Shown: positions 5,724-8,255 of the stretch, piece after piece
How positions within the stretch are numbered: position 1 is the first letter of the stretch
Layout: the number at the start of each line of letters is the position of its first letter
Assembly (NCBI GenBank): GCA_021806005.1
Contig: JAJZDM010000012.1
Span: forward strand, 1 to 58,132
Source: Acidobacteriota bacterium
GTDB lineage: Bacteria > Acidobacteriota > Terriglobia > Terriglobales > Acidobacteriaceae
Length of the DNA stretch: 58,132 nt
Reading direction: 5' to 3'
The notes under the pieces: generated by a model
Database searches by the model: none
Told to the model about the DNA's origin: nothing
What the model saw: only the letters and a program-made list of their open reading frames with translations
Position numbers and translations under genes: made by a program

Positions 5724-5920
5724 GGACTCTCTTTCTCCTGCTCCAACGCCGCCTTCTGCGTTCTTTGTAACCTGCCGCCGCTACCCTGCATCTCAAGGTT
5801 GACGCGCCGCCAGTCTACCGCTAGAACTAGAAAAGACGATCGTGGTGCAAGCTCCATGGTACTCGCTGCCCCATGGTGCCTATCCATATTGGCTTCGTGC
5901 CGCAAAAGAGGAATGTGCTT

Positions 5921-6121
5921 ATGTCAGTCTTGTGCCCGGAATGCGAAAACCCCCTGGACATTGACGTGGATGACGTTGAAGAAGGCGAGATCATTCAGTG
6001 CGATGAGTGCGGAACTGACCTTGAAGTCGTCTCCAGCGATCCGTTGGAATTGGCGCCTGTCGATGAAGAGGGTTACAGCGATGAGGACGAGGATCTCCCC
6101 TTGGACGAGGAGGACGAGTAG
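5921..6121 (+). CDS. LysW-like zinc-ribbon protein with extended acidic tail
   Basis: 66 residues from ATG 5921, chosen because AGAGGA lies 8 nt upstream and the zinc ribbon begins at once. Cys5-x2-Cys8 and Cys27-x2-Cys30 form the ribbon, followed by [17 protein letters not shown], which closely follows the amino-group carrier protein LysW of the AAA lysine/arginine pathway. In LysW the C-terminal EDWGE glutamate is conjugated to the substrate. Here the motif is absent; instead 13 of residues 48-66 are Asp or Glu and the chain ends in Glu66. No lysX, lysZ, lysY, lysJ or lysK gene is in the window. It may be a carrier with a different modifying enzyme or a small zinc protein with another role. 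Confidence 0.8.
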
Positions 6122-6834: not shown

Positions 6835-6862
6835 GGCGAATCTTCGGCGAATATAATTCGCC
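6835..6862 (+). promoter_or_regulatory. -10 box inside a palindromic operator for the Y-family polymerase gene
   Basis: A perfect TATAAT lies at 6852-6857, six bases before the ATG at 6864, so the transcript should begin at or next to the start codon. The -10 box sits within a perfect inverted repeat, GGCGAAT-ATA-ATTCGCC, at 6846-6862, and another GGCGAAT lies at 6835-6841. Three half-sites over the -10 box are the expected layout of a repressor operator. The regulator is not identified; a damage-response repressor of LexA type is the obvious guess for this gene. Confidence 0.6.
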
Positions 6863-6863
6863 C

Positions 6864-8255
6864 ATGGGCGACTCTGCCGCAGCGGACATCTTCGGCTTCC
6901 TCCACGTCGACCTCAACAGCTTCTTCGCATCCGTGGAGCAGCAACTCCACCCCGAGTACCGCAACCGGCCCACCGGCGTGGTTCCAACCATCGCCGACAC
7001 TACCTCCCTGATCGCGGCCAGTTATGAGGCCAAGGCTCTGGGCATCAAGACCGGAACACGCGTTCTCGACGCCAGACGCATCTGCCCGGAGATCATCCTG
7101 GTCCACGGCAACCACGCCACCTACGCCGAGTACTCGCACCGGATCGTTGCCGCCGTGGAGCGCGTCTGCCCGGTAGCCCACACCCCCTCCATCGACGAGA
7201 TGGTCTGCCAGCTTCTGGGCCGCGAACGCGAGCCTGCCCGCGCCCGGCAGATCGCATTGGAGATCAAGCAGGCCATCCGCGACGACGTCGGCGAGACGCT
7301 GCGCTGCTCCATCGGCATCGCTCCCAACCGCTATCTGGCCAAGATCGCCAGCGACATGCAGAAGCCCGACGGCCTGGTCGGTCTGCTGCCCAGCGGTCTG
7401 CCCGGCTCCATCGCCCACCTGGAGCTGCGCGACCTTCCCGGCGTCGGCGCCCGCACCGAACTCCGCCTGAACGCCCAGGGGATCCGCACCATGCCGGAGC
7501 TGCTGGCGCTGGACCGCACCGCCATGCGCAGCCTCTTCGACTCCGTCTGGGGAGACCGCGTCTACCACTGGCTGCGCGGCAATGACACCGGCGACGACGG
7601 CGCGCCCCTCCCCTCCGCGGTCCAGAAGTCCCTGGGCCACTCCCACGTGCTGGCTCCCGAGCACCGCTCCCCGGAGGGCGCCTGGGCCGTAGCGCACAAG
7701 CTGCTGCACAAGGCAGCCATGCGTCTGCGCATGGAGAAGTTCTTCTCCGGCTCCCTGGCCCTTACCGTCAAGTACGCTCTCAGCGCATCGCAGGCGGCCA
7801 GCCTCTCCGGGAGTCGATCCGGAAGCCCGTCCGGAAGCCGATCCGGATTCCAACCTGGAATCCAACCTGGGAACGAACGGGTCAAGAAGCATCTGAGCGG
7901 CCTTACCGAGACGGGATGGGGGATGGAGGCACGCTTCCATCCCTGCCAGGACACGCTCTCTCTGCTGGAAGCGCTGCAGGGCTGCTGGAAGCAGGCGCCC
8001 ACCGATCACCGGCACGCGAAGCCCTTCTTTGTGGGCATCACCCTGCGCAACCTGATCCCTGAGGCGGAGATGCAGGGATCGCTCTTTGAAGAGCCAGGCA
8101 ACCGCAGAGAGCTCTCGGCCACCATGGACAAGCTCAACCTGAAGTACGGACACACCACCCTTCACTTCGCCGGCATGCTTCCGGCCCGAGACAGCGCCCC
8201 CACCCGCATCGCCTTCACCCAGATTCCCGTGCAGTACGGCCAGGAGTACATGTAG
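6864..8255 (+). CDS. Y-family (DinB/Pol IV-like) translesion DNA polymerase
   Basis: 463 residues. The palm motif FLHVDLNSFFASVEQQ with Asp16, the ASYEAKALGIKTGT stretch and TPSIDEM with Asp111-Glu112 supply the metal-binding residues of Y-family polymerases. LRCSIGIAPNRYLAKIASDMQKPDG and the helix-hairpin-helix ELRDLPGVGARTELRLNAQGI follow. The little-finger region is interrupted near residues 312-335 by a low-complexity SGSRSGSPSGSRSG segment and a FQPGIQPG repeat. The sequence TIADTTS where Pol IV usually has a GG.S motif, and MVCQL after SIDE, show that it is a diverged subgroup rather than classical DinB. No Shine-Dalgarno is present; the start codon lies six bases after a TATAAT box, consistent with a leaderless mRNA. 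Confidence 0.9.
   Translation: MGDSAAADIFGFLHVDLNSFFASVEQQLHPEYRNRPTGVVPTIADTTSLIAASYEAKALGIKTGTRVLDARRICPEIILVHGNHATYAEYSHRIVAAVERVCPVAHTPSIDEMVCQLLGREREPARARQIALEIKQAIRDDVGETLRCSIGIAPNRYLAKIASDMQKPDGLVGLLPSGLPGSIAHLELRDLPGVGARTELRLNAQGIRTMPELLALDRTAMRSLFDSVWGDRVYHWLRGNDTGDDGAPLPSAVQKSLGHSHVLAPEHRSPEGAWAVAHKLLHKAAMRLRMEKFFSGSLALTVKYALSASQAASLSGSRSGSPSGSRSGFQPGIQPGNERVKKHLSGLTETGWGMEARFHPCQDTLSLLEALQGCWKQAPTDHRHAKPFFVGITLRNLIPEAEMQGSLFEEPGNRRELSATMDKLNLKYGHTTLHFAGMLPARDSAPTRIAFTQIPVQYGQEYM

Follow-up and report, generated by a model that had tools for sequence, protein, structure and literature searches.

A predicted direct-repeat LexA operator at a translesion polymerase gene of a Granulicella-like acidobacterium

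The site directly upstream of a translesion polymerase gene in the window (the whole stretch of DNA analysed, 58,132 nucleotides) very probably serves LexA, the SOS repressor of this Granulicella-like acidobacterium, as an operator of the direct-repeat type. Comparison of the orthologous polymerase promoters indicated that their conserved element is the direct repeat GCGAA-N6-GCGAA and not the palindrome GGCGAAT-ATA-ATTCGCC, which the original prediction had put forward as a possible motif of a DNA-damage regulator. The idea of a DNA-damage operator was retained, and the palindromic motif was given up in favor of the direct repeat, which recurred at the orthologues and at other repair genes. 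LexA as the binder, repression, induction by damage, and a leaderless transcript are predictions from sequence comparison. The host genome was acidobacterial, and the closest titled lexA loci (among the best 80 of 437) were those of Granulicella and Acidobacteria MAGs, with 95% protein identity.

On the forward strand, positions 6835–6863 of the window read GGCGAAT-CTTC-GGCGAAT-ATA-ATTCGCC-C, followed by the ATG at 6864. The first half-site, GGCGAAT at 6835–6841 (+), is the third half-site that had been noticed just upstream of the palindrome, and the second GGCGAAT, at 6846–6852 (+), is the left arm of the palindrome. The palindrome itself is real and exact at 6846–6862; its right arm, ATTCGCC at 6856–6862, is an inverted third half-site (− strand) in the same 11-bp register and was lineage-specific. 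The core of the predicted LexA operator is the direct repeat GCGAA-TCTTCG-GCGAA at 6836–6851 (+), with an 11-bp pitch, a pattern that was found exactly in the host genome and in orthologous promoters. Directly 3' of it lies the −10-like hexamer TATAAT (6852–6857, +), which runs from the last base of the second GGCGAAT into the right arm. A six-base gap (6858–6863, +) separates this hexamer from the ATG. The coordinates thus place the operator on the −10/start region of the gene, as had been proposed, and the geometry fits a putative leaderless start. No obvious −35-like hexamer was found 17 bp upstream of TATAAT when the sequence was read by eye. From the operator to the ATG, 26 of 28 positions were invariant in the five closest species vs 3 of 81 positions upstream; the invariant positions comprised 15/16 in the direct repeat, 6/6 in TATAAT, and 5/6 in the six-base leader.

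The gene at 6864–8255 (+) encodes a Y-family translesion DNA polymerase of 463 aa, in agreement with the original prediction. The Pfam matches were IMS (1.8e-37), IMS_C (2.4e-8), and IMS_HHH_1 (1e-6), and DNA polymerase IV and Dbh were the best matches among solved structures. The translation contains the motifs SIDE and HVDLNSFFAS, as expected of a Y-family polymerase. At 7800–7880 of the window, imperfect short repeats around GATCCGGA/TCCGGAAGC encode a Ser/Gly-rich stretch; because many relatives no longer align continuously around this stretch (residues 312–339), we infer that it is a linker of varying length. Near the polymerase gene, positions 5873–6121 (+) encode an 82-aa LysW-like zinc-ribbon carrier protein (Pfam PF21344, 2.1e-15).

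The promoters of the polymerase, lexA, recA, and imuA genes were compared among relatives. The polymerase set covered 83 of 85 places, with two second pieces of already included genes omitted. The lexA set comprised 51 places among the matches listed (30 with loci, 20 hand-picked, and the host), and the recA set comprised 30 matches with loci, including the host. For imuA, 40 RecA-like second matches were chosen by frame length and score, with later ones omitted, and the host was added; by tblastn, 40/40 matched host ImuA and 39/40 matched host ImuB. Upstream positions were counted from match starts rather than annotated starts, and the host genome was excluded from the pair and promoter counts and included in the orientation and 77-operator counts.

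The direct repeat was found exactly, on either strand, in 38/82 polymerase, 45/50 lexA, 13/29 recA, and 35/40 imuA promoters, counts that represent related species sharing ancestry and not independent events. The largest counts in any of 100 shuffles were 2, 1, 1, and 1, respectively. With at most one mismatch, the repeat was present in 74/82, 50/50, 22/29, and 37/40 of the same promoters, and the largest shuffle counts were 7, 5, 4, and 4. Some one-mismatch boxes are expected by chance (shuffle means of 2.8 in 82 polymerase and 1.4 in 29 recA promoters). The box was absent even with one mismatch from 8/82 polymerase and 7/29 recA promoters, and the recA box was patchy among the relatives. When TTCGC pairs in any orientation and at spacings of at most 30 bp were counted within 200 bp upstream, the 11-bp direct repeat was the one strongly enriched class, with 38/82 polymerase and 45/50 lexA promoters vs 3/82 and 3/50 for the next class; in 100 shuffles, no class exceeded 2. 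Moreover, the box was exact in 80/80 of the titled lexA loci (the best 80 of 437), whose titles mostly named Acidobacteria or their genera and in a few cases other groups (Verrucomicrobia, Rhodanobacteraceae). A direct repeat common to the lexA, recA, imuA, and polymerase promoters is consistent with the proposed look of a DNA-damage-regulon operator.

The same promoters did not bear out the palindrome. The original prediction had named its absence from other DNA-repair promoters and from orthologous genes as the result that would count against it, and with at most one mismatch it occurred in 1/82 polymerase promoters (that of the close relative G116), 0/50 lexA, 0/29 recA, and 0/40 imuA promoters. 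With at most three mismatches, it was found in 7/82 polymerase, 4/40 imuA, 2/29 recA, and 1/50 lexA promoters, the shuffle means being 1.3, 0.7, 0.8, and 0.7, respectively; in these polymerase promoters, most of the fit consisted of GCGAAT plus the −10. Exact palindromes numbered one in the window and one in the 4.16-Mb genome, with 0.015 expected in the genome from the base composition of the window. Five places with at most three mismatches were found in the window vs 3.2 expected by shuffling, and the degenerate palindrome was judged non-enriched there because 23 of 100 shuffles reached five. Genome-wide, 25 places with at most two mismatches were found vs 2 in the reversed control, a contrast that is probably not fair, since the reversed pattern contains TAA, a triplet seldom met in coding DNA. 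Of these places, the 15 with loci, including the window site, were read out as sequence. The contigs of lexA (C139), imuA (C86), and recA (C41) carried none of the 25. With this result and the lack of conservation at the orthologues, the palindrome was rejected as a regulon motif.

In the host genome, the direct repeat was exact at the polymerase gene and at lexA, where TTCGCCTTTTATTCGC is followed by TACAAT, six bases, and ATG. The recA box, TTCGCTTTTCTTTTGC, had one mismatch. At imuA, the half-sites TCGAA-GCGAA-ACGAA followed one another at 11-bp pitch and ended just before the ATG, with one mismatch to the box. Exact GCGAA-N6-GCGAA occurred at 23 places in the host genome vs 7 in the reversed control, the gene context being checked at lexA, the polymerase, L050, L059, and L060 only; with one mismatch, the counts were 414 vs 293 among the matches listed. 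The window spacer, TCTTCG, differed from the A-rich spacers seen in many relatives. The pattern with an A/T-rich spacer, GCGAANWWWWRGCGAA, was found with at most one mismatch at 9 places in the host genome vs 8 in the reversed control, and the window operator did not match it even at one mismatch. Three of the nine places were exact, one at lexA and the other two in the stretch preceding mraZ, which occurs on two contigs. Counting matches to a pattern is thus too non-specific to reveal a regulon in the host genome, and the operator claim is carried by the gene-by-gene comparison.

Two further loci of the host genome were of note. An exact TTCGC-N6-TTCGC lies about 360 bp upstream of mraZ at the head of the division cluster (L050, G000:C61:300-315), and a near-identical second copy of this stretch lies at the end of another contig, which stops short of mraZ (L059, G000:C165:8398-8413). 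In 6/30 relatives, an exact box was located in the 1500 bp preceding the matched mraZ stretch, with no fixed distance or orientation. LexA binding at a mraZ homologue has been reported for gut bacteria, according to an excerpt of PMC3998124. The imuA-imuB DNA of the host (G000:C86, L131) was 82% identical over 1807 bp to that of G008 (L202), a genome of another genus. The host ImuA and ImuB (partial) proteins were 87% and 82% identical to those of G008, vs 70.5% for LexA and 52% for the polymerase. The cassette on contig C86 may have been horizontally transferred, or the contig may have been mis-binned.

The host LexA (P0001, 201 aa) contained the LexA DNA-binding domain (PF01726) and the S24 peptidase domain (PF00717), and it aligned with a solved LexA across the AAG, GDSM, and TLKR stretches, which are associated with self-cleavage. 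From these features, the host LexA is predicted to be self-cleaving. The region corresponding to the recognition helix differed from that of the aligned E. coli-like LexA, and this divergence is in keeping with a different box. In the proposed mechanism, a LexA dimer would bind the two same-direction GCGAA half-sites one helical turn (11 bp) apart. As the half-sites lie immediately upstream of TATAAT and touch it, bound LexA would keep RNA polymerase off the promoter. Upon DNA damage, RecA filaments would trigger the self-cleavage of LexA, and the polymerase gene would then be expressed from a transcript probably starting at or beside the ATG. The inverted right arm would not be needed for this direct-repeat reading.

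The promoter geometry among the relatives was in line with such a mechanism. A TANANT hexamer came directly after the operator in 32/77 of the polymerase operators in plus orientation (TATAAT itself in 25/77), and in 11 of these 32 promoters the nearest in-frame ATG or GTG was six bases further. In the titled lexA loci (best 80 of 437), a TANN[AC]T hexamer directly followed the nearest box in 76/80, and the start was 12 or 13 bases after the nearest box in 76/80. The transcript of the polymerase gene probably begins at or beside the A of the ATG at 6864 and would then be leaderless. Both lexA and this polymerase gene thus have the operator in the space immediately before the −10, and from this placement LexA is presumed to exclude RNA polymerase at both genes.

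The conserved block could in principle be promoter sequence only, that is, a −10 and a start region with no operator, and the frequency of TATAAT directly after the repeat fits this view. It is nevertheless extremely improbable, since the repeat can face either way with respect to the gene (TTCGC in 51/51 lexA places and mostly GCGAA at the polymerase genes, the host included), recurs at lexA, recA, imuA, and the polymerase gene, and, where exact at recA, sits 97–227 bp before the matched coding stretch. In another view, the palindrome itself would be the target of a dimeric repressor of its own, which would bind the inverted GGCGAAT arms over the −10. The perfect 7-bp arms, so rarely expected in the genome, agree with it, as do the right arm, exact in 4/5 of the closest species (host counted) with one base changed in the fifth, and the mild excess of palindromes at up to three mismatches at the polymerase and imuA genes. 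It was nonetheless judged very unlikely: the palindrome was nearly absent at one mismatch from the polymerase promoters and wholly so from those of lexA, recA, and imuA, none of its 25 genomic places fell on the contigs of the latter three genes, and inverted half-site pairs reached at most 3/82 polymerase and 3/50 lexA promoters. Furthermore, with the second half-site and TATAAT given, only the five bases TCGCC must agree for the palindrome to arise.

A refinement of the direct-repeat LexA operator, rather than a replacement, is a tripartite operator, in which the direct repeat is joined by the right arm as an inverted third half-site, likewise in 11-bp register, and a second dimer or an alternative pairing would reach over the transcript start and tighten repression. 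TTCGC at the place of the right arm was exact in 5/77 operators in plus orientation (G000, G212, G209, G211, and G213) and was present with at most one mismatch in 8/77; at the other offsets from 16 to 35, it was exact only at offset 31 (3/77) and with at most one mismatch never exceeded 4. This local excess, the retention of the arm in the host subclade, and the extra half-sites at 11-bp pitch elsewhere, in direct orientation, favor the refinement. Rows of three exact direct half-sites at this pitch were observed in 6/80 titled lexA loci (best 80 of 437; L284, L289, L308, L328, L336, and L344), and three half-sites with mismatches were observed in the imuA promoters of the host (G000:C86, L131) and G008 (L202). 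These other third half-sites are direct and not inverted, however, and the right arm was limited on the polymerase tree to one subclade with two changes, among near relatives whose conservation may reflect shared descent and constraint on the start region. The tripartite operator is a tentative and rather unlikely refinement. As a feature confined to this subclade and largely conserved in the five closest species, the right arm is of recent origin and has been retained locally; it may extend the operator as a third half-site, or may be a coincidence or part of the constrained start region. It is less likely still, although conceivable, that LexA can combine the middle half-site with either neighbor, so that the spacer, the −10, and the start codon of a leaderless polymerase gene would all be covered. 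If true, one LexA would read both direct and inverted repeats, a stepping stone between the two known operator symmetries. If the third inverted half-site works, the move of a symmetric repressor between palindromes and direct repeats would become testable.

For the Acidobacteriaceae, which form a large group in soils, the direct-repeat LexA operator would provide a well-defined SOS box, TTCGC-N6-TTCGC, with named SOS targets, that is, lexA, recA, imuA-imuB, a Y-family polymerase, and possibly mraZ. Together with gene context, the box would allow SOS genes to be predicted in relatives that have not been cultured.

LexA boxes of the palindromic kind are CTGT-N8-ACAG in E. coli and GAAC-N4-GTTC in B. 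subtilis, as given in an excerpt of PMC3323433. The system predicted here shares with these two the regulator family and the regulon core (lexA, recA, and error-prone polymerases), but its half-sites are direct instead of inverted. The LexA box of Alphaproteobacteria is the direct repeat GTTC-N7-GTTC according to PMC3323433, PMC8565304, and PMC3091678. The window site is similar to it in being a direct repeat of the same 11-bp pitch with TTC common to both half-sites, and differs in the half-site, TTCGC instead of GTTC, and in the T-rich spacer of many relatives. GTTC-N7-GTTC, sought on the coding strand within 150 bp upstream of the 80 lexA loci (best 80 of 437), was exact in only 1/80, and its best match had one mismatch in 31/80 and two in 48/80. 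A half-site of the alphaproteobacterial GTTC type was rejected for the window site, which reads GAAT-N7-GAAT on the + strand. The LexA box of Acidobacterium capsulatum, published in 2006, is reportedly GTTC-N7-GTTC; it is likewise acidobacterial, and the half-site found here, TTCGC, differs from GTTC. The work of Mazon et al. 2006 (Microbiology 152:1109) on the A. capsulatum LexA box is cited in PMC7739468, and its title, as it stands in reference lists, links this box to the alphaproteobacterial lexA gene. In the section of PMC7739468 concerned, LexA is stated to have come to recognise direct repeats in several instances, with citation of the A. capsulatum work and two others. Among the open-library matches listed, none dealt with the SOS box of Granulicella or Terriglobus. 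The imuA-imuB-dnaE2 SOS mutagenesis cassette contains LexA-regulated error-prone polymerases, and the acPolY2-like group of the Y family is represented by A. capsulatum PolY2 (both from excerpts of PMC6511836). The gene studied here resembles these systems in encoding an error-prone polymerase for which LexA regulation is predicted. The window site is best read as a LexA box of the direct-repeat kind already cited for A. capsulatum and Alphaproteobacteria, from which its TTCGC half-site would distinguish it.
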